Below, in pieces: positions 48,187 to 64,000 of a DNA stretch of 64,000 nucleotides. Made by a program: the position numbers and the translations under genes. The stretch comes from an uncultured beta proteobacterium. GTDB taxonomy: Bacteria > Pseudomonadota > Gammaproteobacteria > Burkholderiales > Burkholderiaceae_C. The notes below the pieces were generated by a model that was given only the letters and a program-made list of their open reading frames with translations, did no database searches and had not been told where the DNA came from. The first letter of the stretch is position 1. Every line of letters starts with the position of its first letter. The DNA is taken from contig CAJCCO010000045.1 in NCBI GenBank assembly GCA_903960915.1, forward strand, positions 1 to 64,000. Reading direction: 5' to 3'.

Positions 48187-48904
48187 GGGCAGTCATGGCC
48201 ACCAAGGGACAACAGCAGCAATCCGCTCTTCGACGTACTGTGTTCGGGGACCAACTCCACCGACACGCCGCCAGTCGCCTACAAGAGCGCTTCCCTCGCT
48301 TACTGCCCCAAACATCACATACTTTTGTTCAAAGCAAGTACGAATCTCTGCTATCAGTCAGAAAGGACTGTACGGAATCTAATTGATGGAGGGTAAATTG
48401 GTGGGCAGAAATGAAAAACGCCCCGCGAGGGGCGTCTTTGCTGGGTCACTGGCGGAACGGAGTCGTTCACATAAGGTCTCAAAACCCTTTTAAATACTAG
48501 CTTTCAAGATTTTAAAAATGGCTGGTACCCCCAAAAATACCCTCAGCACGTTTGGAGGTCCTATTTTCAAGGGCTTTATCAAATTTTGCGTCGAGCAAGC
48601 GACAAAAGAATCAGCTCTACTTGTCGCGACAATGTTACAGCGCCGTAATGCAAAAAGTGAATCCTACTCACAGCATGGCCTGTCATTCATTCTGATCGAG
48701 GTGCCCACTATCGCTTGCCGGGTTGGCTAGAACGGGTACAAAACGCCAAACTGATTTGTTCGATGTCGCGAAAAGGGTGTTCGCCAGACAAATCCGCATT
48801 CGAAGGCTTCTTCGTAAGATTAAAAACGGAACTGTTCTATCCTCAGTGCCTTGGAATCGCTGCATAAACCAGTCCAAGTATTTCGTCGCACCTCCATTTA
48901 AACG
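48187..48904. other. Non-coding or degenerate stretch
   Basis: About 720 bases of lower GC than the surrounding genes. Short frames at 48195-48386, 48518-48730 and 48683-48910 show no family signature and no convincing ribosome-binding site. One hairpin (48418-48435) is described separately. It looks like decaying DNA next to the IS remnant. Confidence 0.5.
48418..48439 (+). terminator. Hairpin resembling a terminator
   Basis: ACGCCCC (48418-48424) pairs with GGGGCGT (48429-48435) around GCGA, followed by CTTT and preceded by AAAAA. It could end transcription in either direction, possibly downstream of the Rid gene 230 bases away. The T-run is short. Confidence 0.4.
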
Positions 48905-49598
48905 CAACAAATAGGCTCGAGGGCAGGGCTAAGCGATTGGACGTGCTGGCGCAGGTCCTGCACATTCTTCTCCACCCGTCCTTTCTCCCAGCCAGCGGCG
49001 AGGTTGCAGAACTCGGCCTCGAACAGGTAGTGGCCATCAAGGATTCAAACCGGGCGTTGACACTGCGCTCCTTTACTTTACCCATCTTGTCAACGGCGGT
49101 GCGCATGTTGCCATAGATACCGCGCTTTGGAATGCCACCTAAAACCGTAAAGGCACGGGTGTGGGCGTCAAACAGCATTTCGTGCGACTAGGTGAAGTAA
49201 GCCACCAGCACGTAGGCCAGACCGGCAGCGAGCTTGGTATGCGCCACCTCCAGATGCCTGCGCAATCCGTCAATGACCACGTATTCGCAGATCCAGTCAA
49301 ACTGGAAGGTTTCGCCGAGCTCAAAGCTCAAGGGGACGAAGCCGGTGTGGCGTGGATCGTTGTCCAGAGACTGCCTGAAGTTACAACAGTAGATGTAGAC
49401 CTGGGTTGGGCCACCGCTGTAGCCCATGGCCTGGATGTTCGCGTCAAGCCCCTCATTCTCGAGGGGGATGTACCGAGCCCGTCGCGACTGCCTGGCTGCT
49501 GCACGTTCCACAAACGCTGGCCGCTAGTGCAGCCAATCTGTAGAACGCAGCGGCCCGAACTGCGCGAGGTGGCTCATGGCCAGAATGCGGCGTGTCAT
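48905..49598 (-). pseudogene. IS21-family transposase IstA, inactive remnant
   Basis: In gene sense MTRRILAMSHLAQFGPLRST begins the remnant, followed by IstA-like FVPLSFELGETFQFDW (the catalytic-core DDE region), LRRHLEVAHTKLAAGLAYV and FDAHTRAFTVLGGIPKRGIY. It is broken by a TAG after STDWLH, by a CAG-to-TAG change just before SHEMLF, and by a frameshift after NARFES. It stops around 48905 without its C-terminus. No istB or end repeats were found. It lies near the left edge of the catabolic cluster. Confidence 0.85.
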
Positions 49599-49747
49599 TT
49601 TGCGGCAGCTAATCCCATTCCAGCGTAAATGGTCCGCGCAATAGCCGAAGCATATTTCTTAGTCATCAGGCCTGAGACCGCACAGACAACGCCTGGTCAA
49701 TGTTGAGTTTGCACTTAGTATAAGAAATAGACGGTTTATTGTTGCTA

Positions 49748-49765
49748 ACTTTCCGGCCGGCAAGT
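49748..49765. promoter_or_regulatory. 18-bp palindrome upstream of the Bug gene
   Basis: ACTTTCCGGCCGGCAAGT is an inverted repeat with one mismatched pair. It lies about 40 bases upstream of the next gene. Its AAGT arms recall the AAGTAA of the monooxygenase operator, but the core and spacing differ, so it may bind a different or related regulator. Confidence 0.4.
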
Positions 49766-49807
49766 AGAATTTTAAATACCTTAACAATGACAAATGGAGA
49801 TGCCCCT

Positions 49808-50794
49808 ATGAACAGCAACTTGCTGAATCGACGCGCCGCATTGGCCGGAATTGCTCTGTTGACATCCCCTGGCGCCTTTGCCCAGGCGGTTGATTGGCCT
49901 GCCAGGCAGCCAATTCGTCTTGTGATTCCAGGCCCCCCGGGTGGCGCCATGGACATCTATGCGCGGCTTATCCAGGTGCCGCTCCAAACGGCGCTGAAAC
50001 AGACCCTGGTCCTTGATTTCAAGCCCGGAGCAAACAGCATCATTGGAATAGATGCCGTCGCGAAAGCGGCGCCAGACGGTTACACCCTGGTCATGGCGCC
50101 GTCATCCGCTATCGCGATCAATCCAGTCATCCTTCCCAAGATGCCGTTCGACGTCAAGACCGACCTCGTGCCGGTGGCCCAGTTAGGGGCTGCTGGCATT
50201 TTGCTCGTCAGCAACCCGGCATCGGGGCTCAAGAACCTGCAGGACATGGTGGCCTATGCAAAAGCCAACCCCGGAAAACTGGCTTATGGCTCTTGGGGTA
50301 ACGGGTCAACCGGCCACTTGGTGATGGAGGGCATCAAGGCCCACTACGGACTTGACATGCCCCACATTCCCTACAAGACGACAGCCCAGGAAATCAACGA
50401 CCTGCTTGGCAATACCTTGAGTGTGGCGTTCACAGACATCGCCTCGCCTGTGCCACATATTCGCTCCGGCAAACTGGTAGCCCTTGGGGCGACCGGTTCT
50501 GCCCGTGGCCCGGCCCTGCCCGAGCTACCGACCGTAACCGAGCAAGGGTTCAAGTTCGACTCGGATGGCTGGTTCGGCATTTTTGCGCCGGCTGGAACAC
50601 CCCCTGCGATCGTCGCTCGCCTGAACCAGGAAATTGGCAAGGCGGTGGCGCTTGAAGAAGTCCGGCAGAGGTTCAATCAACAAAATATGGTGATCCCGCC
50701 GCACAAGAATGCACCGCAATTTGCGGCTACAGTTCGTTCAGACATTGACCTCTGGCAGTCGCTTGCCAAGAAGGCCAATCTCAAAATGGATTGA
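49808..50794 (+). CDS. Tripartite tricarboxylate transporter substrate-binding protein (Bug family)
   Basis: This 328-residue Bug protein has a signal peptide (MNSNLLNRRAALAGIALLTS, cleavage near AFAQAVDWPARQ). Its mature start PIRLVIPGPPGGAMDIYARL has the GG-x-D pattern of the family. The twin Arg in NRRAALAG is Tat-like but the context is weak. I chose the ATG at 49808 with GGAGA upstream; an earlier start lacks a signal peptide. It overlaps the alkylsulfatase start by four bases, so it probably binds that operon's substrate or product. Confidence 0.88.
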   Translation: MNSNLLNRRAALAGIALLTSPGAFAQAVDWPARQPIRLVIPGPPGGAMDIYARLIQVPLQTALKQTLVLDFKPGANSIIGIDAVAKAAPDGYTLVMAPSSAIAINPVILPKMPFDVKTDLVPVAQLGAAGILLVSNPASGLKNLQDMVAYAKANPGKLAYGSWGNGSTGHLVMEGIKAHYGLDMPHIPYKTTAQEINDLLGNTLSVAFTDIASPVPHIRSGKLVALGATGSARGPALPELPTVTEQGFKFDSDGWFGIFAPAGTPPAIVARLNQEIGKAVALEEVRQRFNQQNMVIPPHKNAPQFAATVRSDIDLWQSLAKKANLKMD

Positions 50795-52695
50795 GGGTGA
50801 AACCAGCCCACACCAGCACGCGCAAGGTCCATGCGCAGGCACTGGAAAACCTGGACTTCACCGACACCCGGGATTTTGACGATGTACGTCGCGGGTTTAT
50901 TGGCACACTACCAGATGCGCAGGTTCTGACAGCCCGTGGAGACGTCGCGTGGACGATGCGAGACCATGCATTTGTGGAGGGTGAGGCGCCAGAAACGGTG
51001 CACCCCAGCTTGTGGCGAATGGCCAGGCTCAACACCGTACATGGACTATTCAAGGTCACAGATCGTATCTACCAGGTGCGCGGATTCTGCCTCGCTAACG
51101 TCACCTTCATCGAGGGCGACACCGGCTTGATCGTCATCGATCCGTTGACCTTCGTTGAACATGCGCAGGCAGCGCTGCAGCTTTATCGTGCGCACCGCGG
51201 CGAGCGTCCCATCCGCGCGATCATCTATACCCATAGTCACCGGGACCACTACGGTGGAGCCAAGGGTATGGTGTCGTTGGAGGAGGTCCGCACACAGGCG
51301 GTACGAGTGATCGCACCTGCCGGGTTTCTCGAGGAGGCGTTCTCCGAGACCATCCTGGCCGGCGTGCCGATGCGCCGTCGCTCCCTGTTCCAGTTTGGGA
51401 CCACGTTACCGCCGGGTCCCATGGGTCACGTCGACAGTGGTCTGGGCAAAGCGGTGGGGCGCGGCAGCGATGGCTTGATTCCACCTGAATGGCTAATCGC
51501 TGAGCCTATCGAGAAACACGTCATCGACGGTGTCGAGATCGTGTTCCAGCTCACGCCGGGCGCAGAGGCGCCGGCGGAAATGAATCTGCTGTACCCCGGC
51601 TTGCGTGCGCTGAATCTGGCAGAGAACGCCTGCCACACCATGCACAACCTCTGCCCGCTTCGAGGGGCCAAAACGCGCGATGCGCTGGCCTGGTCACGTT
51701 ACCTTGACACGGCCTTGCAGGATTTCGTGCCCTATGTCGATGTGGTCTTCGCACAGCACCACTGGCCGGTGTGGGGCGCGCAGCGAATCCAGGAGTTTGT
51801 GGCTGGACAGCGCGACCTGTACCGCTACCTGCATGACCAGACCCTGCGCCTGATGAGCCATGGGCTAACGGCGACCGAAATCGGTGAAGCACTGATGCTG
51901 CCCAACCACCTATCGCGGCAATGGTTTGCGCGCGGCTACTACGGCGCCATCACCCACAACGTAGCGGCCATCTATGCACACTACATGGGCCCGTACGACG
52001 GCAACCCCGCCAATCTAAATCCACTGCCACCTGTGCAGGCCGGCACCAAGTATGTGGACTACATGGGAGGCGCCGACGAGGCTGTGGCAAAGGCCAGGCT
52101 GGACTTTGCAGCCGGCGAGTTCCGCTGGGTGGTTGAGGTGATGAAACATGTCATCTTCAGTGACCCGGGGCACGAGGCGGCACGGGCATTGTCCGCCGAT
52201 GCGATGGAGCAACTGGGGTACCAGGCCGAGTCAGCCACCTGGCGCAACGCCTATCTGCTAGCGGCGCGCGAGTTGCGCAATCGTCGGCCGGCAGGTGCGC
52301 CGGGCAGTATTCCAATCAGTGCGGACATGCTCACCCTGTTGCCCCTGGGGAGTTTTCTGGAGTATCTGGCCATCCGGCTCAAGGGCGAGAAGGTGCAGGA
52401 TCTAAAGGCACGGTTTGACTGGTCACTGCGCAATGATGATGGTCAAGCCGAGCAGCAGCGCCTGACGCTTTCCAATGGCGCCTTGAGCCACCTTGCAGGT
52501 CAGCATGAAGGTAGGGTTGACGCGGGTATCGTCATGTCACGCGCCGAGCTGGCCACATGGCTTGCCACACCCGACGGCCTGTTGCAAGCCCTTGATACGG
52601 GCGCGATGGACATTCGGGGCAACAAGCCCTTGTTCCGCCAGTTGCTCGCTGCGCTCGATCAGTTTGATCCGATGTTCAATGTCGTGGAGCCCTGA
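50791..52695 (+). CDS. Alkylsulfatase, metallo-beta-lactamase fold (SdsA-like)
   Basis: This 634-residue enzyme has the zinc-binding motif T147-H-S-H-x-D-H153 (THSHRDHYGGAKG), an MBL core, a middle dimerisation domain and a C-terminal SCP2-like domain, the layout of SdsA1/Pisa1-type alkylsulfatases. They hydrolyse alkyl sulfates to an alcohol and sulfate. It has no signal peptide, so it should act in the cytoplasm. The start is TTG at 50791 or GTG at 50797; neither has a strong ribosome-binding site. It is coupled to the Bug gene and followed 11 bases later by the DUF1254 gene. Confidence 0.9.
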   Translation: MRVKPAHTSTRKVHAQALENLDFTDTRDFDDVRRGFIGTLPDAQVLTARGDVAWTMRDHAFVEGEAPETVHPSLWRMARLNTVHGLFKVTDRIYQVRGFCLANVTFIEGDTGLIVIDPLTFVEHAQAALQLYRAHRGERPIRAIIYTHSHRDHYGGAKGMVSLEEVRTQAVRVIAPAGFLEEAFSETILAGVPMRRRSLFQFGTTLPPGPMGHVDSGLGKAVGRGSDGLIPPEWLIAEPIEKHVIDGVEIVFQLTPGAEAPAEMNLLYPGLRALNLAENACHTMHNLCPLRGAKTRDALAWSRYLDTALQDFVPYVDVVFAQHHWPVWGAQRIQEFVAGQRDLYRYLHDQTLRLMSHGLTATEIGEALMLPNHLSRQWFARGYYGAITHNVAAIYAHYMGPYDGNPANLNPLPPVQAGTKYVDYMGGADEAVAKARLDFAAGEFRWVVEVMKHVIFSDPGHEAARALSADAMEQLGYQAESATWRNAYLLAARELRNRRPAGAPGSIPISADMLTLLPLGSFLEYLAIRLKGEKVQDLKARFDWSLRNDDGQAEQQRLTLSNGALSHLAGQHEGRVDAGIVMSRAELATWLATPDGLLQALDTGAMDIRGNKPLFRQLLAALDQFDPMFNVVEP

Positions 52696-52706
52696 GGCCA
52701 CTGAAG

Positions 52707-53984
52707 ATGCTTGAAAGCCTGGTCGAGTCCGCGTTCGAATACGCGTACCCCTTGTTTGCCGTCGCCCACACGCGCTTCCGGGCGGTGCAGGATCCGGGCA
52801 ACACGCAGCGGCACCCGCCCAATACGGTGCGACACGAGCGTCATTTGAGCGACCATCATTCCCGCTGGATCACAGCGCCCAACAATGACACGCTGTACTC
52901 GAATGCGTGGCTGGACCTCTCTCATGGGCCGGTACAGGTTCGCGTTGCTACCCTGCCGGCGGGGCGCTACTGGTCGGTGGCGTTCATGGACGCTTTCACG
53001 AATCACATTGCAATGCTTGGGCAGCGCCTGGATGGCATCGGCCCTGCCGACGTCACCTTGGTGGGACCGGGTCAGCATGACGCCAGTTTGCCGGGTAGGG
53101 TCATTCGCGCGCCCGGCAACGACGTCTGGCTGTTCGGCCGCTGGCTCGTTGACGGTGCCGAAGATCTCTCCTATGCGTATGCCATGCAGCGCCAGCTGGA
53201 AGTGTTAGCTCCCGCCAGCACGGGTCAGGCGTTGCGCGTGGCGCCCGGCGCGGCCACCGATGCACGAAACTTCCTGGCCGTGGTCAACGAGTCGCTGGCG
53301 CACAACCCACCTCCTGCTCATGAGAGCGAACTTTGGCGGTGTTGGGAGATCATTGGTTTGCGTCCGGGGGCTGTAGACGCCTGGAGCACAGTCAGCGAGG
53401 ACGCGCGTACGGCCTGGACGATAAATATTGTCGCGGCTTTTGAGCGCCTGCGCATCGCGGGCGCGAGCGGTCGGACAAATATCCATGGCTGGGTCGCATC
53501 CGGTCCGGAGATCGGCAACTTCGGAGCAAACTTTGCATTGCGAGCCTCGGTCGCACTAGGTGGGCTCGGAGCCCTCGAACCCGTGGAAGCGAGGTATTTC
53601 GTCAAATTTCACGACCAGGCAATGCACGGGCTTGACGGGCGCAATCGTTATGTGTTGCGCGTACCGCCTGCGGGCATCCCTACCGATTCGTTCTGGTCGT
53701 TCTCCATGTACGCGCCCACCGCTGACGGTAAGCGGGTCTTCGTCGAGAACCCGATTCGCCGCTATTCCATCGGGAATCGCACGCCTGGTCTTGTGTCGAA
53801 TGCCGACGGGTCGCTCGATATCTCTCTGCAGCACAAGGCCCCGGGGGACCCCCGAAGGCTGGCAAACTGGCTCCCAACGCCTGCCGGTCCATTCCAGATA
53901 TCTCTTCGGGCTTACCTGCCGAGCCAAGCGTTGCTCGATGGGAGCGTAGAAATGCCCACGGTCATTTTTATCGATGGTCCGTAG
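52707..53984 (+). CDS. DUF1254/DUF1214 domain protein
   Basis: This 425-residue protein starts with the DUF1254 part (EYAYPLFAVAHTRFRAV, then TAPNNDTLYSNAWLDLSHGP) and ends with the DUF1214 part (near residue 320, SFWSFSMYAPTADGKRVFVE). The two domains often occur together. No function is assigned, and there is no clear signal peptide. It sits between the alkylsulfatase and the monooxygenase and shares their direction, so it may belong to the same pathway. Confidence 0.85.
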   Translation: MLESLVESAFEYAYPLFAVAHTRFRAVQDPGNTQRHPPNTVRHERHLSDHHSRWITAPNNDTLYSNAWLDLSHGPVQVRVATLPAGRYWSVAFMDAFTNHIAMLGQRLDGIGPADVTLVGPGQHDASLPGRVIRAPGNDVWLFGRWLVDGAEDLSYAYAMQRQLEVLAPASTGQALRVAPGAATDARNFLAVVNESLAHNPPPAHESELWRCWEIIGLRPGAVDAWSTVSEDARTAWTINIVAAFERLRIAGASGRTNIHGWVASGPEIGNFGANFALRASVALGGLGALEPVEARYFVKFHDQAMHGLDGRNRYVLRVPPAGIPTDSFWSFSMYAPTADGKRVFVENPIRRYSIGNRTPGLVSNADGSLDISLQHKAPGDPRRLANWLPTPAGPFQISLRAYLPSQALLDGSVEMPTVIFIDGP

Positions 53985-54048
53985 CAGCGAAGATGCCGGG
54001 CGCGACCCAGATTTTTGATGAATACAAGGGTTTTCACTTACATTTATT

Positions 54049-54066
54049 TTACCGGTCGACAAGTAA
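54049..54066. promoter_or_regulatory. Candidate repressor operator upstream of the monooxygenase
   Basis: TTAC-CG-GTCGAC-AA-GTAA is an 18-bp palindrome with two central mismatched pairs. The same pattern recurs at 55899-55916. It lies 38 bases before the monooxygenase ATG. A weak -35/-10 pair (TTGATG, TACATT) lies just upstream, so a bound protein could block transcription. Confidence 0.6.
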
Positions 54067-54103
54067 CATTCGGATGCGTATCAAACAATTTCGAGGAACC
54101 AGC

Positions 54104-55756
54104 ATGAGCAATACAGATCAAGCACACATCAGAAGTGTGGCCACCCATCGGGTGGATGTGGTCGTGGTCGGTGCCGGCTTTGGTGGCATGTATGCGATCT
54201 ACAAGTACCGACAGATGGGGCTCAAGGTTCAGGGTTTTGAAGCCGGTGGTAACGTTGGCGGGGTATGGTACTGGAACCGCTATCCAGGGGCTCGCGTTGA
54301 CCTGCAGAGCATTGACTACAGCTACTCGTTCTCCCCCGAAATAGAACAGGAATGGACCTGGCCTGAGGAGTTCTCCGGACAGCCTGACGTGCTTGCGTAC
54401 CAAAATTTTGTCGCTGACCGTCTCGACTTGCGTAAAGATATTCGGTTCAACACGCGTGTGACGGGTGCTGTCTGGAATACCGATCGCGCACTTTGGACCG
54501 TAGTGACTGATCAAGGTGACACTTTCGAGGCGACCTATTGCGTCATGGCCACCGGCCCTTTGTCTATCCCCAAGGACCCCGACATTCCCGGCCTCAACCG
54601 ATTCAAGGGTCAGTTGCTTCGCGCTGCCAAATGGCCCCATGAGCCCGTCAACCTCGCTGGAAAGCGTGTGGGTGTCATTGGTACCGGATCGACCGGCATC
54701 CAGATTGTGCAGGAGCTGGGCCCGAAGGTGGGGGATCTGTACGTCTACCAGCGTACGCCGAGCTTCACGATGCCCATGCGCAACCGCAAACTCGAGCCCG
54801 ACTATGTGGCGGAGGTCAAGCGCAACTATGCCGGCATCCGGGAGGTAGCCCGCAACAGCCCTATCGGCGGTACGCGACCGCAATCCACCCGGGCCTTCTT
54901 CAGTGTGACCCGGCAACAGCGCCGCCAGCTTCTCGAAGATGGCTGGCGCAACGGTGGGCTCGCCCTGCTGGGCACCTTTGCCGATCTGCTAATCAATCCG
55001 GAGGCCAACGAAGAGGTCGCCGAGTTCATTCGAGACAAGATAAGTGAAGTGGTGAGAGACCCGGTGACCGCCGAGAAGCTCAAGCCACGCGGATATCCAG
55101 TCTTCGCTCGCCGCCCCTGCCTAGACACGGGCTACTACGAGACCTACAACCTGCCCAATGTCCACCTGATGGATTGCCTGACCGATCCGATCCTAGAGGT
55201 CACCGAAAGGGGGGTGAGAACACAGGCTGGCGAAGTAGAACTGGACACATTGATACTGGCTACTGGTTACGACGGGCTCACGGGAGCACTGCTCGCCTTT
55301 GATGTCATTGGCCGTGACGGGCGCAAGTTGAACGAACACTGGAAAAATGGTGCCCGCTCCTACCTGGGCCTCATGATGGAAGGATTCCCCAACCTTTTCA
55401 TGACAACCGGACCCAACGGCCCTGCCGCTCTGGCGAACATCATCCGAATCAGTGAACACGATGTCGACCTGGTTGCAGGCGCCATCACGCATATGGATAA
55501 GAATGGGCTCGAGACGATTGAGCCGTCAAAGGACGCGGAAGACAACTGGATGTCCCTCGTCGCCACACTCGCCCAGCGCTCGTTGGTCTCCAAGGCCAAG
55601 ACTTGGTATGTCGGGGCCAACGTCAGGGACAAGCCCCAGGGGCTCACGCTTTTCACGGGAGGCTTCGGCAAGTACCGGGAACTTTGTTCCGCGGCCGTTC
55701 AGGATGGATACCGAGGTTTTGTATTCGGACAAAAAAAGAGGGCCGGCTCGGCTTAA
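54104..55756 (+). CDS. Baeyer-Villiger-type flavin monooxygenase
   Basis: This 550-residue protein has two Rossmann motifs, GAGFGG at 23-28 for FAD and GTGSTG at 193-198 for NADPH. Between them lies the BVMO fingerprint at 167-178. The fingerprint reads F-K-G-Q-L-L-R-A-A-K-W-P, so the usual His (FxGxxxHxxxW) is Arg173. A BVMO would insert oxygen next to a ketone carbonyl to give an ester or lactone. The start at 54104 follows CGAGGAACC; 37 codons upstream are open but cover the operator. Cyclohexanone or steroid-type substrates are possible; the sequence does not decide. Confidence 0.88.
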   Translation: MSNTDQAHIRSVATHRVDVVVVGAGFGGMYAIYKYRQMGLKVQGFEAGGNVGGVWYWNRYPGARVDLQSIDYSYSFSPEIEQEWTWPEEFSGQPDVLAYQNFVADRLDLRKDIRFNTRVTGAVWNTDRALWTVVTDQGDTFEATYCVMATGPLSIPKDPDIPGLNRFKGQLLRAAKWPHEPVNLAGKRVGVIGTGSTGIQIVQELGPKVGDLYVYQRTPSFTMPMRNRKLEPDYVAEVKRNYAGIREVARNSPIGGTRPQSTRAFFSVTRQQRRQLLEDGWRNGGLALLGTFADLLINPEANEEVAEFIRDKISEVVRDPVTAEKLKPRGYPVFARRPCLDTGYYETYNLPNVHLMDCLTDPILEVTERGVRTQAGEVELDTLILATGYDGLTGALLAFDVIGRDGRKLNEHWKNGARSYLGLMMEGFPNLFMTTGPNGPAALANIIRISEHDVDLVAGAITHMDKNGLETIEPSKDAEDNWMSLVATLAQRSLVSKAKTWYVGANVRDKPQGLTLFTGGFGKYRELCSAAVQDGYRGFVFGQKKRAGSA

Positions 55757-55898
55757 GGGGACCACGCAAGGCTGGGCGTACGTCCGGTGTGCCGGCTTTA
55801 CACCTCAAAACGGAGCCCTAGTGCAAGCCTGATTTCCCCTAACACTTTTCAATATTTTCGAACTTTAGAAAGCGTAAAAACTGTTATTCTTAATTTAC

Positions 55899-55916
55899 TT
55901 ACCTGTCGACATGTAA
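55899..55916. promoter_or_regulatory. Second copy of the palindromic operator, upstream of the ligase
   Basis: TTAC-CT-GTCGAC-AT-GTAA repeats the pattern of 54049-54066 in an AT-rich gap; one extra matching base on each side extends it to CTTAC...GTAAG. It is 90 bases before the acyl-CoA ligase gene. Same regulator is likely for both. Confidence 0.6.
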
Positions 55917-56006
55917 GCATCTTATTGATCAGATGATTGACATGCATTTTTGGCGTGCTACGAGGCATGTAGTTCGTGAACCGCGACCCGCAACAAACGT
56001 GAGACG

Positions 56007-57659
56007 ATGATGACATTTAGAGGTTTAATGCAGCAGCAGCCGCTGCTCATATCGGGACTGATAGAGCACGTTGCCATGAACCATGGCCGTGTGAACATCG
56101 TTTCGCACCTGTCAGAAACGCACGTAAACCGGTCCACATGGGGCGATGTGCGCACCCGGTCCAAGCGCCTTGCCAATGCCCTGGAAACGCTCGCGGTACA
56201 GCCGGGTCAACGGATTGCCACCCTGGCATGGAACACCCACCGGCATCTGGAGCTCTATTTCGGTGTCTCTGGCATGGGTGCGGTGCTACATACGGTCAAC
56301 CCGCGTTTGTTTGCCGAACAAATCGTCTACATCATCAACCATGCAGCCGACGAGTACGTGTTCTTCGATGTTTCGTTTGCCGACCAGCTAGTCGCCATTG
56401 CCGATGAGTTGCCCTTGGTTAAGGGTTTCGTGGCATTGTGCGATCGCAGTGAATTGCCTCAGTTGGCCTTGCCCAACCTGCTGTGCTACGAAGACTTGTT
56501 AGCGGCTGCCTCGCCTGACTACCTGTGGCCGGAGCTGGATGAAAACACGGCATCGTCGCTTTGCTATACATCAGGCACAACAGGCAACCCGAAGGGCGTG
56601 TTGTACAGCCACCGTTCGACCGTTCTGCAGGCCTGGGCGGCCTGCACGGTCGATGGGCTGGGTCTTTCTGCACGCGACAGCGTGCTGCTTGTAGCCCCCA
56701 TGTTCCACGTCAATGCCTGGGGGGTTCCCTATGCATCGGCCATGTGTGGTGCCAAACTTGTGATGCCTGGTCATGATGTCAGCGGCCCTCGCCTTTTCGC
56801 CCACTTGCGGGACGAGGGTTGTACTTTCTCGCTGGGGGTGCCAACCGTCTGGCTCGGTTTCTTCAACTACGTCGAGTCTAACCTGGCAGTGCTCGATTTA
56901 ACCAACATCCGGCTTGCCCGGGTTGTCGTCGGAGGCTCCGCCGCACCCCGCGCTATTGTCGAAAAATTCCACCAACTTTTCGGTACCTTCGTGATCCATT
57001 CCTGGGGCATGACTGAGACCAGCCCGGTAGCTCTGGTGTGTAACCTGCTGCCCGCTCATGAGGGTCTGCCACTAGACAAGCGGATTGACATACAGACCAA
57101 GCAGGGCCGGGCAATTTTCGGCGTCGAGATCGACATCTTCAGCCCCGATGGCCTGCGCCTGCCACACGATGGTACGACTGTCGGCGAGATGAAGGTGCGC
57201 GGTCCGTGGGTGGCCTCGGCCTATTTCGGCGATGCACCCGGCTCGGCAACGGACGAGCAAGCCTGGTTCAGCACAGGTGATGTGGCGCTGATCGATAGCG
57301 AGGGTTTTGTCCAGATTACCGACCGCACCAAGGACGTGATCAAGTCCGGCGGCGAATGGATATCTTCCATTGACCTTGAAAACGCTGCGGTGGGGCACCC
57401 CAAGGTCAGCGAGGCGGCCGTTATCGGCCTAGCGCACAGCAAGTGGCAGGAGCGCCCGCTCCTATTGGTTGTGACAAAGCCCGGCGAGTCCCTCACGCGT
57501 GACGAGATACTAAGTTTTCTGAGTGAGCGCGTTGCGCGTTGGTGGTTGCCCGACGACGTGGTTTTTGTGGATGCGTTGCCACACACGGCCACGGGCAAGT
57601 TGCTCAAGACGAAGCTGCGTGAACAGTTTCGCGAGCACCGCCTGCCGACTGAGGTTTGA
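56007..57659 (+). CDS. Acyl-CoA synthetase (AMP-forming, fatty-acid ligase-like)
   Basis: This 550-residue ANL-family enzyme has the ATP-binding P-loop [16 protein letters not shown] (about 187-202), the motif WGMTETSP, the hinge [15 protein letters not shown] and the C-terminal catalytic lysine in [11 protein letters not shown]. It would activate a carboxylic acid as acyl-CoA. The length matches medium/long-chain ligases of the FadD3/AlkK type. The gene is alone between two gaps; the operator at 55899 lies upstream. It would accept the hydroxy acid from the lactonase step. Confidence 0.92.
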
Positions 57660-57771
57660 CAGATACAGAGAAATTATTGGTTTGAATTGATTTGATTGGA
57701 GCCACCGTAGGTGCGGGGGTCCGATCAAGTTTTGTAGGTGGTTCGGTAACTAAAACACAGGAGTCAAAAGT

Positions 57772-59013
57772 ATGAAAGCATTCACTACAGTCCCTCAATT
57801 TCCCCGGCTCGCCCTTGTGGCAGCAGGTATTGCCGCCATGCTGGGTGCAGCGCCAGCGCAGGCCCAACTCAGCGATGGTGTGGTTCGCATCGGCGTGATG
57901 ATGGATATGTCGGGCCCTTACTCCGGCGCGGGCGGGGCGGGCAGTGTATTGGCCGTGAAATTGGCCGTGGAAGACATCGGCGGCACCGTGTTGGGCAAAC
58001 CCATCGAGGTGATTGAGGCGGATGACCAGAACAAACCCAATGTGGGCATCAACCTGGCCCGCCAATGGATCGAGAATGAAAAAGTGGACACTATCGTCAC
58101 CGGCTCTGCGTCGTCCATCGCGCTGGGTATCCAGACCATGATGAAAGAGAAGAAAAAGCCGGTCCTGTTCGCAGGTCCTGTCGCCTCAGACCTCACAGGC
58201 AAGAGCTGTTCGCCAATGGGTATTCAGTACGTGCTGGACACCTTTGCGCTGGCTAATGGCAGCGTGTCTAACCTGCTCAAGCAGGGTGTGAAGACGTTCT
58301 ACTTCGTCGTGGTGGATTACACTTTCGGCGCATCCTGGCAGGCTGATGCAACCAAATTCATCGAAGCGGCGGGCGCCAAGGTGATCGGCTCGGTGAAACA
58401 CCCGCTGGGCGCAACCGACTACTCGTCCTACCTGCTGCAGGCGCAAGCCAGCAAGGCGGACGCCATCGTATTCCTGAATGCCGGCTCCGACACCACTAAC
58501 GCACTCAAACAGGCAGCCGAATTCAGGCTGACCCAAAAGGGACAGAAAATTGCCGTGTTCGGTCTTAATCTCAACGTGGTGACTGCCACCGGCCTGGAGG
58601 TAGCACAGGGTCTTCAGTTCACCGCTCCGTTTTACTGGGACCGAGACGAGGACAGCCGTGCGTGGGCCAAGCGCTTTATGGCGCGTAACAAGGGAGTTGC
58701 CCCAGACTACAACCAGACCGCCTCATACAGCGCCGCATACCACTACCTCAAGGCTGTTCGGGATGCAGGCACTGACGAAGGCGTGGCAGTCATGGCGAAA
58801 ATGAAGGCGACGCCTATCAATGACTTTGAAATGAAAAACGTGAAGATCCGTGAAGATGGCCAAGTGATGCGCCCCACCTACGGGGTCATGATCAAGACAC
58901 CTGCCATGTCGAAATATGCGAACGACTTCTACGCCCTCAGTGGTGAAATCCCGGGCGACAAAATCCATCGGCCATTGTCCGAAGGTGGTTGCGACTTCGT
59001 TAAATCCAAGTAA
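57772..59013 (+). CDS. ABC transporter substrate-binding protein (branched-chain amino acid type)
   Basis: This 413-residue type I periplasmic binding protein has a signal peptide ending APAQAQLSD. The mature start VRIGVMMDMSGPYSGAGGAG is the LivK-like signature, and IDTIV-type ligand-pocket residues follow. Related proteins bind aromatic acids, short amides or amino acids, so the ligand cannot be named. An ACAGGAG site lies 7 bases before the ATG at 57772. The matching permeases and ATPases (livH, M, G, F) follow after the lactonase and SDR genes, so the six genes form one uptake unit. Confidence 0.93.
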   Translation: MKAFTTVPQFPRLALVAAGIAAMLGAAPAQAQLSDGVVRIGVMMDMSGPYSGAGGAGSVLAVKLAVEDIGGTVLGKPIEVIEADDQNKPNVGINLARQWIENEKVDTIVTGSASSIALGIQTMMKEKKKPVLFAGPVASDLTGKSCSPMGIQYVLDTFALANGSVSNLLKQGVKTFYFVVVDYTFGASWQADATKFIEAAGAKVIGSVKHPLGATDYSSYLLQAQASKADAIVFLNAGSDTTNALKQAAEFRLTQKGQKIAVFGLNLNVVTATGLEVAQGLQFTAPFYWDRDEDSRAWAKRFMARNKGVAPDYNQTASYSAAYHYLKAVRDAGTDEGVAVMAKMKATPINDFEMKNVKIREDGQVMRPTYGVMIKTPAMSKYANDFYALSGEIPGDKIHRPLSEGGCDFVKSK

Positions 59014-59120
59014 CGGTTGCTGGTCATGCTGTCTTCCCGAGTCCAATTGCTGCAGGCTAAGCCGCCCAGGCAAGCTGATTCAGCGTTAGCTGGCATGACC
59101 ACCCTTGCGGAGCAAGATGG

Positions 59121-60008
59121 ATGACCCACATCGACATCGTGACCGACGAGCGTGACGCGCTGGGCGAATGTCCTTTGTGGGATGAACGCAGCCAATCGGT
59201 ACTGTGGATCGACTCGCACCGGCAACTGGTGCGGCGTTACAAACTGTCCACTGGCGCAGGCGAAGCGTGGAGTCTTCCCTCCGCCATCGGCTCCATGGCC
59301 TTGTGTGATAGCGGGCGCCTGATGGTGGCGCTGGCCAATGAATTTGTCTACCTTGACCTCGCCACAGGCACGCTGGAACCCATTAGCTCGGTAACCCATG
59401 TGGCGTCACGCATCCGTCTGAACGACGGGCGTACCGACCGCCGTGGGCGCTACCTAGTAGGCTCGGTAGTGATGGGCCGTGTCGACAAGCTCGGCGCCCT
59501 GTACCAATTAGAGGCTGGCCCGCAGATTCGCCAATTGGACGCGGGGTTTTCCTGCGTCAACGCGATCTGCTTCAGCCCCTCCGGCGACTGGTTCTACTAC
59601 ACCGACAGTCACAGCCGAAAGATCATGCGCCGTGCCTACGACACAGCGACAGGGGCCTGCGGCGATCCAGAGATCTTCGTGGATACCAACCCCCTGGGCT
59701 CCGGCGCGGACGGCGCTACCGTGGACAGTGAAGGCTGTCTGTGGACGGCACTCGTTGAAGTCGGCAAAGTGGCCCGCTTCGCGCCAGATGGCCGTCTCGA
59801 GCGGCTCATCGACATGCCGGTGCGGTATGTCACCTGCCCGTGTTTTGGTGGACCGGATCTCGATATTCTTTTTGTTACCAGCATCAGCAACAGCGGCAAC
59901 GCACTGAAGGACAGCCATCCGGATGCTGGTGCCCTGTTTGCCGTTCACGGCACGGGCGTGCGGGGGCTGCCCGAAGTGCGTTTTGCCGATAGACCAACAC
60001 CTACATAG
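59121..60008 (+). CDS. SMP-30/gluconolactonase/LRE family protein
   Basis: This 295-residue protein is a six-bladed propeller of the SMP-30 family. Likely metal ligands are E15 in ALGECPLWD, the Asn in RLNDGRTDRRGRY and the Asp in ADGATVDSEG. The family hydrolyses lactones (gluconolactone, other sugar or cyclic lactones) to hydroxy acids. It is 11 bases upstream of the SDR and 107 bases after the binding protein. In this cluster the lactone from the monooxygenase is a plausible substrate; this is inference. Confidence 0.88.
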   Translation: MTHIDIVTDERDALGECPLWDERSQSVLWIDSHRQLVRRYKLSTGAGEAWSLPSAIGSMALCDSGRLMVALANEFVYLDLATGTLEPISSVTHVASRIRLNDGRTDRRGRYLVGSVVMGRVDKLGALYQLEAGPQIRQLDAGFSCVNAICFSPSGDWFYYTDSHSRKIMRRAYDTATGACGDPEIFVDTNPLGSGADGATVDSEGCLWTALVEVGKVARFAPDGRLERLIDMPVRYVTCPCFGGPDLDILFVTSISNSGNALKDSHPDAGALFAVHGTGVRGLPEVRFADRPTPT

Positions 60009-60019
60009 AGGAATAAAAA

Positions 60020-60772
60020 ATGGCTAAACGCCTGGATGGAAAAGTGGCGCTGGTGACCGGTGGAGCGCGGGGTATTGGACGCAGCATCTCCAGTGCTCTG
60101 GCCGCCGAGGGCGCGGTGGTCGGCGTGCTCGATCTGCGCGAAGACTTGGCGCAAGTTGCTGTGGACGGGATTCTCGCCGCTGGCGGCACGGCCATGGCGT
60201 TCGGGGGGGACGTTGCACAGCGCGAGACCTTCGATAAAGCGGTGCAGGCACTCAAGCAGGCACATGGTCGGTTCGATATCCTGGTGAACAACGCCATCTG
60301 GGTGCGTTATGGCCCTATTGCGGCCATCACCCCGGAGATGCTTACGCGCATGGTGGGAACCGGTTTCAACTCGGTCGTCTGGGGCATCCAGGTCGGCTCA
60401 GAAGCCATGACCGAGGGCGGCAGCATCATCAATATCGCATCGGCCGCTGCCTTCGTGGGGGTGGCCGAGGCCATGGTCTATGGCGGTGTTAAGTCGGGTG
60501 TCTTGGGCCTGACCCGTTCGTCGGCGGTAGAACTGGGCCCGCGCGGGATCCGCGTCAATGCCGTTTGCCCAGGCTCCGTTCCCACGGACGGCATGAAACT
60601 CAACGTAGACCCCGACATGATGGCCACACGTATTGCCCGCACGCCACTAGGTCGCCTTGGCGAAGTAGAGGATATCGCCCAGGCGGCACTGTTCCTGGCC
60701 TCGTCTGACAGCAGTTGGATTACCGGAACGTCCATTTTGGTTGATGGCGGCGCCACGCATGCGATACGGTGA
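60020..60772 (+). CDS. Short-chain dehydrogenase/reductase
   Basis: This 250-residue classical SDR has the cofactor motif TGGARGIG (13-20), the catalytic S141, Y154 and K158 (in ASAAAF and VYGGVKSG) and the usual NNA at 90-92, though followed by Ile instead of Gly. It would oxidise an alcohol or reduce a ketone with NAD(P). The length and the C-terminal LVDGGATHAIR match typical SDRs. It sits between the lactonase and livG, suggesting it supplies the ketone for the monooxygenase. Confidence 0.92.
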   Translation: MAKRLDGKVALVTGGARGIGRSISSALAAEGAVVGVLDLREDLAQVAVDGILAAGGTAMAFGGDVAQRETFDKAVQALKQAHGRFDILVNNAIWVRYGPIAAITPEMLTRMVGTGFNSVVWGIQVGSEAMTEGGSIINIASAAAFVGVAEAMVYGGVKSGVLGLTRSSAVELGPRGIRVNAVCPGSVPTDGMKLNVDPDMMATRIARTPLGRLGEVEDIAQAALFLASSDSSWITGTSILVDGGATHAIR

Positions 60773-60815
60773 CGGCATCGCCATGCACGTGACTCAGAAG
60801 AAACGGAGACAGGCA

Positions 60816-60872
60816 ATGAAAAGGCAATTTTTCCTGAGGCCGCAGTGGCACATGGGAGCAACCCATGCGTGA
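60816..60872 (+). other. Possible 18-codon leader ORF before livG
   Basis: MKRQFFLRPQWHMGATHA begins at an ATG with GGAGA upstream. Its stop overlaps the livG start (CATGCGTGA). It could couple livG translation or be chance. No function can be claimed. Confidence 0.25.
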
Positions 60873-61620
60873 GGACTACATCCTGGAGGCCACCAGCCTG
60901 TCCAAGCAGTTCCGCGGTTTTTATGCGGTGAAGAATGTTGATCTGCGTGTACGGCGACACACCATACATGCCTTGATTGGACCCAATGGCGCTGGCAAGA
61001 CGACCTGCTTCAACCTGCTGACGACCTTTCTGCCGCCGACTGCAGGCAGCATCCTGTTCAATGGCGAAGAAATCTCGGCCAGCGACCCTGCCACAGTCGC
61101 CGCCAAGGGGCTGGTGCGCTCGTTTCAGATTTCAGCGGTGTTCGGTCAGATGACAGTGCTGGAGAACGTTAGGGTAGCTTTGCAGCGTAAGGCCGGCATG
61201 ACCTATGCCTTCTGGCGCCGCGATAGCAGCCTCAAGGTGCTAAATGACCGCGCTCTGGAACTCATCGAGATGGTGGGCCTGACGCGTTACGTCGACACCC
61301 TTGCAGTTTCGCTGTCGTATGGCCGCAAGCGTGTGCTGGAACTGGCCACCACGATGGCACTGGAGCCCGAGATGCTGTTGCTCGATGAACCGATGGCGGG
61401 TCTAGGCCATGAAGACATTGGCCCGGTTATACAGATCATTCGCGACTTTGCCAAGGGCCGCACCGTGCTGATGGTGGAACACAACATGAAGGTGATCGCT
61501 GAGTTGTGTGACCGGGTCACCGTGCTGCAGTCGGGTGAAATACTAGCCGAAGGCACTTATGCGGAGGTCTCGCGCGACCCTGCCGTGATTGAAGCCTATG
61601 TGGGAGGTGCGAATGACTGA
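60865..61620 (+). CDS. livG: Branched-chain amino acid-type ABC transporter ATP-binding protein LivG
   Basis: This 251-residue ABC ATPase has Walker A GPNGAGKTT (about 38-46), the signature VSLSYGRKRVLEL in place of LSGGQ, and Walker B MLLLDEPMAGL. The N-terminus YILEATSLSKQFRGFYAVKN and the GHEDIG segment are LivG-like. It energises the LivHM channel. livF overlaps its end by 8 bases. The ligand is set by the binding protein at 57772. Confidence 0.93.
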   Translation: MREDYILEATSLSKQFRGFYAVKNVDLRVRRHTIHALIGPNGAGKTTCFNLLTTFLPPTAGSILFNGEEISASDPATVAAKGLVRSFQISAVFGQMTVLENVRVALQRKAGMTYAFWRRDSSLKVLNDRALELIEMVGLTRYVDTLAVSLSYGRKRVLELATTMALEPEMLLLDEPMAGLGHEDIGPVIQIIRDFAKGRTVLMVEHNMKVIAELCDRVTVLQSGEILAEGTYAEVSRDPAVIEAYVGGAND

Positions 61621-62347
61621 ATTGAATCCAACCGCTGGCACTGCCCAACCGCTGTGCCTGTCAATCAAGAACCTGGTCGGGCACTACGGCGAGAACCTGG
61701 CGCTGCACAACATCAATCTCGAGGTGCGCAAGGGAGAGGTGGTGTGTCTGCTCGGCCGCAATGGCGCCGGCAAAACCACAACCCTGCGCGCGGTGATAGG
61801 ACTGCTGACCAAGCGTCAGGGCCTGATCGAGATCGATGGACAGCAAACCACTGGCATGCTGCCCGAGGCGATTGCCAGGCTGGGAGTTGCCTATTGCCCG
61901 GAAGAGCGGGGCATCTTCTCCAGCCTGAGCACCGAAGAGAACTTGTTGCTGCCACCTGTGCTGCGACCGGGGGGGCTGAGCATCGACGAAATTTACACTT
62001 TATTTCCCAATCTCAAGGAACGCCGCCACAGCCAGGGCACCAAGCTATCGGGCGGCGAGCAGCAGATGCTTTCCATTGCACGAATCCTGCGTACGGGCGC
62101 CAGTTTTCTGCTGCTGGACGAATGCACCGAGGGGCTGGCCCCAGTGATCGTGCAAAAGATCGGTCAGATCATCGGCCTCCTCAAGGCGCGTGGTTTCACA
62201 GTGCTGATGGTGGAGCAAAACTTTCGCTTTGCATCCAAGGTGGCGGACCGTTTCTATGTCATCGAGGAAGGCATGGTGGTGGACCATTTCCACCGGGACG
62301 ACATCGCCGGGAACCTGGCGCGCATCGAAAGCCTGCTAGGACTATGA
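61613..62347 (+). CDS. livF: Branched-chain amino acid-type ABC transporter ATP-binding protein LivF
   Basis: This 244-residue ABC ATPase is the LivF partner: Walker A GRNGAGKTTTLRAV, signature LSGGEQQML, Walker B FLLLDECTEGLAP and the C-terminal VMVEQNFRFASKVADRFYVI. I chose the ATG at 61613, which has GGGAGG upstream; a start eight codons earlier is open. It overlaps livG by 8 bases and is followed 57 bases later by livH. Confidence 0.93.
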   Translation: MTELNPTAGTAQPLCLSIKNLVGHYGENLALHNINLEVRKGEVVCLLGRNGAGKTTTLRAVIGLLTKRQGLIEIDGQQTTGMLPEAIARLGVAYCPEERGIFSSLSTEENLLLPPVLRPGGLSIDEIYTLFPNLKERRHSQGTKLSGGEQQMLSIARILRTGASFLLLDECTEGLAPVIVQKIGQIIGLLKARGFTVLMVEQNFRFASKVADRFYVIEEGMVVDHFHRDDIAGNLARIESLLGL

Positions 62348-62404
62348 AACCCATCACCCGCTACATCACACGTTGCCGCGCATTACTTATCTGGGGGATA
62401 TGCC

Positions 62405-63289
62405 ATGGATGATCTTTTCGGAATACCGATGGCAGCTTGGATCGGCCAGCTGGTCATTGGCTTGATCAACGGCTCTTTCTACGCCCTCATGAGCCTGGGC
62501 CTTGCCATTATTTTCGGGCTGCTGCACGTCGTGAATTTCGCCCATGGCGCGCAGTACATGGTGGGTGCATTCGTGGCCTGGATTTTGCTGGAATACTTTG
62601 GCATCGGGTACTGGCCAGCGCTGCTGATCACGCCAGTGGTGGTGGGGGCCTTTGGCCTATTGATCGAGCGCCTCATGCTACGCAGGCTGTATGGCATCGA
62701 CCATGTCTACGCCTTGTTATTGACTTTTGGCCTGTCGATCCTGATGGAAGGCGTGTTCCGGCTGAAGTATGGTGCCACCGGCCAGCCCTACCCCAACCCG
62801 ATATCAGGCGGGCTGGATGTTGGTGTCACGTTCATTCCGGGATATCGCCTGTGGGTGATTGTTGTCTCGCTGGTTTTGTGCCTCACCACATGGTTTGTGA
62901 TTGAGCGCACCAAGCTGGGTTCGTACCTGCGTGCAGCAAACGAGAACGCCGCGCTGGTTCGTACATTCGGCATCAATGTACCGCGCCTTCTAATGCTGAC
63001 CTATGGACTTGGCGTGGGTCTGGCCGGATTCAGTGGGGCCATGGCCGCGCCGATCTACCAGGTCAATCCACTGATGGGCACCGGCCTGATCACGGTGGTG
63101 TTTGCCGTGGTGGTGATCGGCGGCATGGGATCCATCATTGGCGCCATCATTTCAGGGTTTGCTCTGGGCGTGGTGGAGGGGTTGACCAAGGTAATCTACC
63201 CCGAGGGCGCCTCTGTGGTCATCTTTGTCGTGATGATCATCACGTTGGTCTTCAAGCCCAATGGTCTTTTTGGTCAGGAGGCTAAATGA
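62405..63289 (+). CDS. livH: Branched-chain amino acid-type ABC transporter permease LivH
   Basis: This 294-residue membrane protein has about eight helices and the LivH signature LVIGLINGSFYALMSLGLAI and GLLHVVNFAHGAQYMVGAF. The EAA-like cytoplasmic loop SYLRAANENAALVRTFGINV is also present. It overlaps livM by four bases (ATGA). It would form half of the inner-membrane channel. Confidence 0.94.
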   Translation: MDDLFGIPMAAWIGQLVIGLINGSFYALMSLGLAIIFGLLHVVNFAHGAQYMVGAFVAWILLEYFGIGYWPALLITPVVVGAFGLLIERLMLRRLYGIDHVYALLLTFGLSILMEGVFRLKYGATGQPYPNPISGGLDVGVTFIPGYRLWVIVVSLVLCLTTWFVIERTKLGSYLRAANENAALVRTFGINVPRLLMLTYGLGVGLAGFSGAMAAPIYQVNPLMGTGLITVVFAVVVIGGMGSIIGAIISGFALGVVEGLTKVIYPEGASVVIFVVMIITLVFKPNGLFGQEAK

Positions 63290-64000
63290 AATATCTTTCA
63301 CCACGCACGGTGCAGGTGCTGATGCTACTTTCGGTCTGTGCTCTGCTCGCCGCACCTTTTGTCCTATACCCGAATTTTCTGATTGAGGTATTGTGCTTTT
63401 CGCTGCTAGCTGCAGCCCTGAATCTACTGGTGAGTTATGCCGGCCTGTTGTCGTTCGGGCATGCCATGTTTTTCGGTGCGGCAGGTTATGTTACGGCACA
63501 TGCAATCAAGGTCTGGGGTTTCGAACCCGCGCTGGGCATTGTGGTTGGTGTAGCAGTCGCCGCAGGGGTGGGGGCTGTCACAGGCGCGTTGGCCATCCGT
63601 CGCCAGGGCATCTACTTCTCGATGATCACACTGGCGTTTGCACAATTGTGCTACTTTCTCGCACTGCGCATGCCGTTCACTGGTGGCGAGGATGGGCTGC
63701 AGGACGTACCCCGGCGCGCCCTGTTCGGCTTCATCAACATGGGCAATTCCTTGGTGGTGTATTTCGTGGTTTTGGCCATTACGGCGTTTGGCTTTTTCGC
63801 CATTTACCGCATCGTTTATTCGCCGTTTGGGCAGGTGCTGCGAGCGATCCGCGACAACGAGGCACGCGCCATCTCACTCGGTTACCGAGTCAACAACTAC
63901 AAGCTGATGGTCTACATCTTGTCGGCCACCCTGGCGGGTCTGGCCGGTTCAATCAAGGCGGTGGCATTTCAGGTCGTCACGCTGTCCGATCTGAACTGGG
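63286..64000 (+). CDS. livM: Branched-chain amino acid-type ABC transporter permease LivM (cut by window edge)
   Basis: The first 238 codons of LivM are visible, starting MKYLSPRTVQVLMLLSVCAL. The motifs LNLLVSYAGLLSFGHAMFFG and the loop GQVLRAIRDNEARAISLGY are characteristic. The gene continues past base 64000. The ATGA overlap with livH shows coupling. Confidence 0.93.
   Translation, partial: MKYLSPRTVQVLMLLSVCALLAAPFVLYPNFLIEVLCFSLLAAALNLLVSYAGLLSFGHAMFFGAAGYVTAHAIKVWGFEPALGIVVGVAVAAGVGAVTGALAIRRQGIYFSMITLAFAQLCYFLALRMPFTGGEDGLQDVPRRALFGFINMGNSLVVYFVVLAITAFGFFAIYRIVYSPFGQVLRAIRDNEARAISLGYRVNNYKLMVYILSATLAGLAGSIKAVAFQVVTLSDLNW

Follow-up and report, generated by a model that had tools for sequence, protein, structure and literature searches.

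Gene Content of the Cluster

The window analyzed here (64,000 nucleotides from an uncultured beta proteobacterium) is the first 64 kb of the 76,050-bp contig C45 (CAJCCO010000045.1), in a draft genome totaling 3.72 Mb. Toward its right end begins a candidate catabolic cluster of 21 genes (contig positions 49808–73741, Pfam profile search), including those for a type I Baeyer–Villiger monooxygenase (BVMO)-like protein, an alkylsulfatase, an SMP-30 family hydrolase, and a TetR regulator (Table 1). The window edge cuts the cluster, and 9.7 kb more follows on the contig.

The original prediction, made from the window, had placed an alkylsulfatase, a Baeyer–Villiger-type monooxygenase, an SMP-30 lactonase, an SDR, an acyl-CoA ligase, a DUF1254/DUF1214 protein, a Bug protein, and a full Liv-type importer in one direction, and Pfam matches on the + strand were obtained for every one of these families. 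All five components of the Liv (HAAT) set, LivK, LivH, LivM, LivG, and LivF, are present by family, but the window lacks the end of LivM, so that the importer is complete only beyond the window edge. The open reading frame (ORF) 61654–62412, overlapping LivF in another frame, has no Pfam match and is a mechanical ORF only.

Two transposase copies bracket the cluster. The 168-bp relic at the left edge matches the right-hand copy with 78.6% identity over 168 bp (blastn) and 77% over 56 aa (tblastn), and the right-hand copy sits inside an rve/HTH transposase ORF. A stop-riddled stretch at 48880–49640 looks like another decayed transposase.

Table 1. Features of the cluster and its edges; positions beyond 64000 lie on the contig, past the window.
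Feature	Position	Strand	Match or remark
Transposase relic, left edge	48677..48844	+	inverted match to transposase at contig 74722-74889
Weak candidate operator, 40 bp before Bug1-sulfatase-DUF1254	49750..49767	+	3 mismatches by pattern
Bug1, TctC-family substrate-binding protein	49808..50794 (start 49808 likely)	+	PF03401
Alkylsulfatase	50791..52695	+	PF00753/PF14863/PF14864 (Lactamase_B, Alkyl_sulf_dimr, Alkyl_sulf_C)
DUF1254/DUF1214 protein	52707..53984	+	Pfam
Candidate TetR operator before BVMO	54049..54066	+	TTACNNGTCGACNNGTAA; pattern drawn from sites 54049 and 55899
Type I BVMO-like monooxygenase, 550 aa	54104..55756	+	Pfam FMO-like; ORF 53993-55756
Candidate TetR operator before CoA ligase	55899..55916	+	pattern source site
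AMP-forming acyl-CoA ligase	56007..57659	+	PF00501/PF13193
LivK, ABC substrate-binding protein	57772..59013	+	PF13458; best PDB 3i09
SMP-30 family hydrolase, putative lactonase	59121..60008	+	PF08450, 242.8 bits
SDR1	60020..60772	+	PF13561
LivG	60865..61620	+	PF00005/PF12399
LivF	61613..62347	+	PF00005
LivH	62405..63289	+	PF02653
LivM	63286..64272 (window ends at 64000)	+	PF02653
SDR2	64269-65120	+	
SDR3	65168-65947	+	
SnoaL	65993-66538	-	
ADP-forming CoA ligase	66552-68645	-	
ACAD2, acyl-CoA dehydrogenase	68655-69785	-	
ACAD1, acyl-CoA dehydrogenase	69791-71029	-	
Bug2	71078-72055	-	
TetR regulator	72228-72932	-	
ECH	72968-73741	-	

Conservation of the Core Genes

A collection of genomes from 84,980 species was scanned with an alignment of five BVMOs, and the best 80 loci were kept, more being present. 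With four plasmid loci added, these fall into 60 near loci at 57–79% BVMO identity and 24 far loci at 43–48%, thresholds that were chosen after the data had been seen; the flanks read were mostly 10 kb, some shorter. This search for co-occurring families, called for in the original prediction, revealed a conserved unit, with BVMO and SMP-30 together in 35 of the 60 related loci and SMP-30 in none of the 24 around far BVMOs. At the near loci, SDR1 was likewise found at 35, ACAD1 at 37, the CoA ligase, SnoaL, and ECH at 27 each, LivK at 25, and the ADP-forming ligase at 21, while the same genes were absent from the far loci except for ACAD1 (2). The grouping of neighbors exceeds chance in this comparison.

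All ten scored core genes are present in six of the 60 near loci. The complete core, with the sulfatase absent from the stretch read, occurs in Comamonas antarctica (L005), in the Pantoea sp. 18069 record (L063), in Variovorax sp. CF313 (L010), and in G044. In the host family, seven of 150 genomes, own included, have a BVMO match at E ≤ 1e-150, and near-clade proteins (75–79%) within those are restricted to G044 and G082; the other BVMO homologs of the window's own genome (contigs C43 and C116) are only 27% identical. The cluster proteins of the Pantoea record, SDR2 aside, are 61–87% identical to those of the window's cluster, in an order nearly that of C. antarctica, which would reflect either gene transfer or a mislabelled or contaminated assembly.

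The BVMO Clade

The likely start of the BVMO is the ATG at 54104, most homologs aligning from about residue 38 of the mechanical ORF or later. Its best PDB match is phenylacetone monooxygenase (PAMO, 1w4x), followed by steroid monooxygenase (4ap3), and it is 47.8% identical to the T. fusca protein L065. In a tree of 87 BVMO sequences, obtained by a quick search in which the program warned of long outgroup branches, 63 near sequences, from the 60 near loci, the window, and G044 together with one from G082, are separated from the rest by a branch with SH-aLRT 100.

Type I BVMOs are recognized by the fingerprint FxGxxxHxxxW[P/D] and by a second one, [A/G]GxWxxxx[F/Y]P[G/M]xxxD. The second is found here as GGVWYWNRYPGARVD, in the form GGxWxxxxYPGxxxD common to PAMO and steroid monooxygenase, and the equivalents of Arg337 and Asp66, active-site residues of PAMO, are each kept in 63/63 clade members. 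The clade differs from PAMO at G334-T335-K336, which is F-A-R in all 63 sequences, the outgroup keeping Lys336 in 24/24 and Gly334 in 21/24. It differs also at the His of the first fingerprint, kept in only seven members and replaced by Arg in 43, Leu in eight, Tyr in three, and Met in two, as against His in 22/24 of the outgroup. PAMO H220 is Ser in 63/63, a position at which the outgroup varies too (His in 3/24). Some of these positions are part of the NADPH site, and a difference in cofactor use is therefore possible.

The Alkylsulfatase and Its Companions

The start of the alkylsulfatase overlaps the stop of Bug1 by four bases. The protein has metallo-beta-lactamase, dimerization, and C-terminal domains with HxHxDH from residue 148, i.e., the SdsA1/Pisa1-type architecture, and its best PDB matches are 7tl5, 4av7, and 4nur. 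This architecture and the HxHxDH motif are common to the alkylsulfatases Pisa1, SdsA1, and YjcS, from which the cluster enzyme differs in that its open frame (648 codons vs. 634) is too short to accommodate a signal peptide and in belonging to a subfamily of its own, at 63–67% identity, tied to the pathway. Since the sulfatase appears confined to the cytoplasm, a sulfate ester would need to be imported.

Among 399 genomes of the family, own included, scored with three candidates per genome, only three others (G356, G194, and G376) hold a homolog above 60% (65–67%), the next being at 54%. All three lie with Bug1, SMP-30, ACAD, ADP-forming ligase, and ECH homologs in the 40 kb read. In G356 the sulfatase, DUF1254, the BVMO, and the full core form a single block, and in G194 and G376 the company includes an SDR and a luciferase-like monooxygenase. 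The latter may substitute for the BVMO, because no homolog of this BVMO was found in the 40 kb read of either genome. Luciferase-like monooxygenases, 63–88% identical to two query copies, were seen in the clusters of G194, G376, L007, L024, and L028, accompanied in four of the five, G194 included, by a flavin reductase.

Two further loci, L016 and L025, carry the sulfatase beside the BVMO. Of six genomes with this sulfatase subfamily, five have Bug1 (at least 61% identical), five an SMP-30 homolog, and four the BVMO; Bug1 homologs of 61–64% lie near the sulfatase in G356, G194, G376, and L025. Around distant sulfatases (47–53%, n = 16) an SMP-30, BVMO, ADP-forming ligase, or DUF1254 homolog within 11 kb was found in 0/16, these controls being half of 32 further sulfatase places below 55% and six of them being cut by contig ends; some showed weak Liv, SDR, ECH, CoA-ligase, or Bug matches (26–38%). 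Contig C95 of the same genome (L111:431-11915), with a second alkylsulfatase of 428 aa that has no C-terminal-domain match, would have been a 17th control and was left out of the count because it gave no qualifying tblastn sulfatase match. Presence of the sulfatase by chance is weakened by these surveys, in which the homologs of 3/398 other family genomes all lie near pathway genes and those of the distant controls do not.

The sulfatase was also considered as a standard cluster member and rejected, since the flanks read contain it at 2/60 related BVMO loci; at a third, L027, it lies about 18 kb off, as judged from the twin contig G356:C6, and reading reached 10 kb at most for the remaining 57. 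Its place in the pathway, as first predicted, is supported by the recurrent ties of its close kin to pathway genes and not by the usual cluster, in which it occurs in at least three of 60 loci. Mapped on the BVMO tree, the sulfatase takes four changes, as does DUF1254, in keeping with either repeated addition or repeated loss. A PhoD-like phosphatase lies near the sulfatase in two genomes (L016:15957-17936 and L137:18128-19936), the two being 67% identical to each other.

L024, L025, and L027 have homologs of the DUF1254 protein (58–60%) at most a few kb from the BVMO. The predicted model of this protein has a mean pLDDT of 65, and no function was apparent in open-access papers mentioning DUF1254, among the matches listed. 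A PhaC-like alpha/beta hydrolase and an AMP-dependent ligase were seen near DUF1254 and BVMO in L024 and L025, and L024 also has an NADH:flavin oxidoreductase of the old-yellow-enzyme family, by which an enone substrate could be meant.

A Candidate TetR Operator

An 18-bp palindrome, likely a TetR operator, lies upstream of the BVMO, CoA ligase, Bug2, and ECH-TetR genes, with a weaker copy before Bug1-sulfatase-DUF1254. The motif TTACnnGTCGACnnGTAA was derived from the sites before the BVMO and the CoA ligase; two more lie farther along the contig, upstream of ECH-TetR (73828, with one mismatch) and of Bug2 (72116, with three). In the whole genome, sequences with at most two mismatches to TTACCKGYCGRCMGGTAA occur only at these four places, all inside the cluster. 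At up to three mismatches there are 16 places vs. 24 for the reversed pattern, so this level of the pattern is noise.

A matrix made from the four contig sites gave a site of at least 20 bits in 8/16 related stretches (L005, L063, L010, L023, L026, L064, L025, and G044), with none as good in 25 shuffles each (first-order Markov resamplings throughout), and these strong sites mostly precede the same genes, namely CoA ligase, ECH, Bug2, BVMO, and TetR. L027 has one site of 13.6 bits; for its twin G356, of which a longer stretch was read, the expected number of such sites is 0.08. An operator-like site also lies upstream of a porin gene in C. antarctica (L005:1674), the porin being a possible outer-membrane member of the regulon.

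When the matrix is built from the sites of relatives alone, the site at 49750 scores 17.1 bits, and 0 as good occurred in 40 shuffled contigs, although those relatives' sites had first been found via matrices containing this contig's sites and the 49750 site had been spotted by eye beforehand. In L025, two weak sites (0.12 and 0.36 expected) lie between Bug1 and DUF1254-sulfatase. Since the 49750 site beats its shuffles and L025 has such sites, the sulfatase operon probably, not certainly, shares the regulon of the cluster. Co-regulation, on which the original prediction depended, is made likely by this shared candidate operator.

Other Enzymes of the Cluster

The metal site of SMP-30/gluconolactonase proteins consists of Glu, Asn, Asp, Asn, and Asp, and the corresponding residues E16, N101, D102, N147, and D197 are kept in at least 95% of 39 sequences. 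For the AMP-forming ligase, the nearest NCBIfam model is 3-(methylthio)propionyl-CoA ligase (776.7 bits, below the cut-off of 822).

ACAD1 best matches 4x28_A, a chain of ChsE4-ChsE5, and Tcur3483 (6wy8/6wy9), and the best match of ACAD2 is Tcur3481 of the same 6wy8/6wy9 complex. The two adjacent genes match partner chains of one steroid-type complex, the match of ACAD2 being weak. Steroid ACAD heterotetramers are known, with an alpha2beta2 arrangement and the catalytic Glu in one subunit only, according to passages of a published account (PMC8399759). The cluster pair shares with the ChsE4-ChsE5 and T. curvata enzymes treated there two adjacent, unequal ACAD genes, and differs from them in being only distantly related.

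The predicted model of the SnoaL protein (pLDDT 93.5) matches LinA, the scytalone-dehydratase-like 3ef8, and bile-acid 7-alpha-dehydratase (TMq 0.71 for the last). Because of this resemblance of the model, the protein is likely a lyase. Its sequence alone finds a single, weak PDB match, to the beta subunit of a ring-hydroxylating dioxygenase.

Proposed Pathway and Alternative Explanations

From direct results, which are the families, the synteny, the conserved motif, and the catalytic residues, we infer every activity, the order of steps, the role of the regulator, and the substrate. With moderate confidence, the cluster is read as a TetR-controlled catabolic island, flanked by transposase relics, for an alicyclic compound that is bulky and charged, either a secondary alcohol or a ketone, and extended here to its sulfate ester. 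The compound would be taken up by Bug1 and the Liv importer, the cytoplasmic alkylsulfatase would remove the sulfate, and an SDR would oxidize the alcohol to a ketone. The BVMO would then put an oxygen beside the carbonyl to give a lactone, to be opened by the SMP-30 protein. The freed hydroxyl may be oxidized by further SDRs, CoA esters formed by the AMP-forming and ADP-forming ligases, and beta-oxidation-type steps performed by ECH, a heteromeric ACAD1/ACAD2 enzyme, and the dehydratase-like SnoaL protein. Repression of the operons by TetR would probably last until an intermediate binds the regulator. The scheme of the original prediction fits, its step order being the simplest. Its parallel to the cyclohexanol route is less well supported: given the importer, the two CoA ligases, and the ACAD pair near steroid enzymes, the imported substrate is more probably large and acidic than a small, neutral analog of cyclohexanol. 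This substrate is probably a carboxylic acid.

Several observations weigh against this reading. None of the ten core genes was found in the read flanks of 7/60 loci of the BVMO clade, and the BVMO itself departs from the type I fingerprint, reading FKGQLLRAAKWP with Arg in place of His. Pfam recognized no zinc alcohol dehydrogenase, aldehyde dehydrogenase, or thiolase among the cluster's genes. The best match of ACAD2 (63.6 bits) is close to that with isovaleryl-CoA dehydrogenase (60.9), and 4x28_D comes only 15th. As to regulation, the sulfatase operon's own operator is weak, and in L016, L018, L020, L006, G194, and G376, three of which (L016, G194, and G376) bear the sulfatase, no site under 0.16 expected was found with the contig-site matrix. 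L025 has sulfatase and BVMO and no SMP-30 or Liv homolog in its 21.6 kb, and in G376 only Bug1 and weak matches lie within 11 kb of the sulfatase. The distant sulfatase of C95 is also surrounded by a Bug gene, TetR, an ADP-forming CoA ligase, and two DUF1254 genes, so the Bug, ADP-ligase, and DUF1254 company is not unique to the close kin.

The main rival, which appears doubtful, places beta-oxidation first: a ring-bearing acid would be imported, CoA-activated, and shortened to a methyl ketone, and the BVMO would yield an acyl ester, cut by the SMP-30 protein or another hydrolase. The position of PAMO ahead of steroid monooxygenase among the PDB matches of the BVMO agrees with it; the predominance of lactonases among known SMP-30 proteins and the lack of a retro-aldolase recognized by Pfam among the cluster genes do not. 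The model for this order is Comamonas testosteroni KF-1, the toolkit (CoA ligase, ACADs, ECH, BVMO, and hydrolase) being the same. In KF-1, 3-C4-SPC is converted to 4-sulfoacetophenone, from which the BVMO SAPMO forms the acetate ester, and this ester is then split by a carboxylester hydrolase (PMC3746432). The family of this last enzyme speaks against the parallel. It is unlikely that the Bug1-sulfatase-DUF1254 operon is a separate neighbor brought in by island growth and that the core never meets a sulfate ester. Such an origin would agree with the absence of the sulfatase subfamily from the flanks of 58/60 related loci, the four changes on the BVMO tree, the transposase relics at both cluster ends, and the weakness of the 49750 operator; it is opposed by that operator being shared when scored by matrix and by the company of the subfamily in its six genomes, five with SMP-30, four with BVMO, and five with Bug1, vs. 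0/16 controls.

Quite improbable is a route for linear, surfactant-like secondary alkyl sulfates, in which the sulfatase would give a secondary alcohol, an SDR the ketone, and the BVMO an ester, followed by hydrolysis and beta-oxidation. A sec-alkylsulfatase, 4av7, is the second-best PDB match of the sulfatase, after 7tl5, and the contig name of L025 mentions diesel, but the Liv importer, SMP-30, SnoaL, and ACAD pair of the many related clusters without sulfatase would be left unexplained. Least of all is a steroid or bile-acid/bile-alcohol side-chain or ring pathway to be expected, e.g., for a bile-alcohol sulfate. The ACAD pair is nearest to steroid ACADs, the SnoaL fold is near bile-acid 7-alpha-dehydratase, steroid monooxygenase is the second-best kind of BVMO match, and fish excrete a bile salt, 5-alpha-cyprinol sulfate (PMC8399759). 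Against these stand the large sequence distance to steroid enzymes and the lack of a match in the genome to KshA_C, the single 9,10-seco marker searched; the sensitivity of that search is in doubt, as 0/14 controls passed the cut-off.

The proposal of a TetR-controlled island for bulky, charged alicyclic compounds can be widened, tentatively and with low confidence, to an undescribed, widespread route by which Proteobacteria associated with plants and algae would degrade natural cyclic acids bearing a keto or hydroxy group. This route would have a BVMO subfamily of its own, and a dedicated intracellular sulfatase would have been added to it repeatedly in some lineages, giving access to sulfate conjugates. 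Jasmonate-type acids and the plant metabolite 12-hydroxyjasmonate sulfate, for example, would suit every gene, as they offer an acid, a cyclopentanone, a side chain, and an alkyl sulfate, no result being specific to them. No catabolic gene cluster was found in the open-access literature on jasmonate and the rhizosphere, among the matches listed.

Related Pathways and Significance

The chn and cpn pathways for cyclohexanol and cyclopentanol comprise an alcohol dehydrogenase, a BVMO, an alpha/beta-hydrolase lactonase, and an AraC-type regulator, and chn includes 6-hydroxyhexanoate and 6-oxohexanoate dehydrogenases. The logic of alcohol to ketone to lactone to hydroxy acid is common to them and the cluster, in which SMP-30 replaces the alpha/beta-hydrolase lactonase, TetR replaces the AraC-type regulator, and a Liv importer, CoA ligases, an ACAD pair, SnoaL, and a sulfatase are extra. 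Among the 21 genes of 49808–73741, no chn-type lactonase was found by Pfam, and instead of the hydroxyhexanoate and oxohexanoate dehydrogenases only SDRs were found. With the 4-sulfophenylcarboxylate pathway of KF-1, as described in the passages cited, the cluster shares a BVMO followed by a hydrolase, framing by insertion elements, and an acidic substrate, here a probable one; it differs in the proposed sulfate ester in place of a sulfonate, in the hydrolase family, and in the Liv and SMP-30 genes of its core (PMC3746432).

Among the open-access papers searched, none joins 'Baeyer-Villiger' and 'SMP-30', and no sulfatase-BVMO route is described in the titles and abstract openings of those listed. 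Within this scope, the combination is unlike any described pathway, as had been suggested.

If the proposal is true, the cluster would provide a regulated set of genes, widely distributed and open to testing, by which rings are opened through lactones, with a BVMO subfamily in which the motif beside the active-site Arg is altered. It would also provide context for assigning function to DUF1254/DUF1214 proteins and Bug receptors, and the operator, together with the coupling of the sulfatase to the pathway, would make the inducer and the substrate directly searchable.

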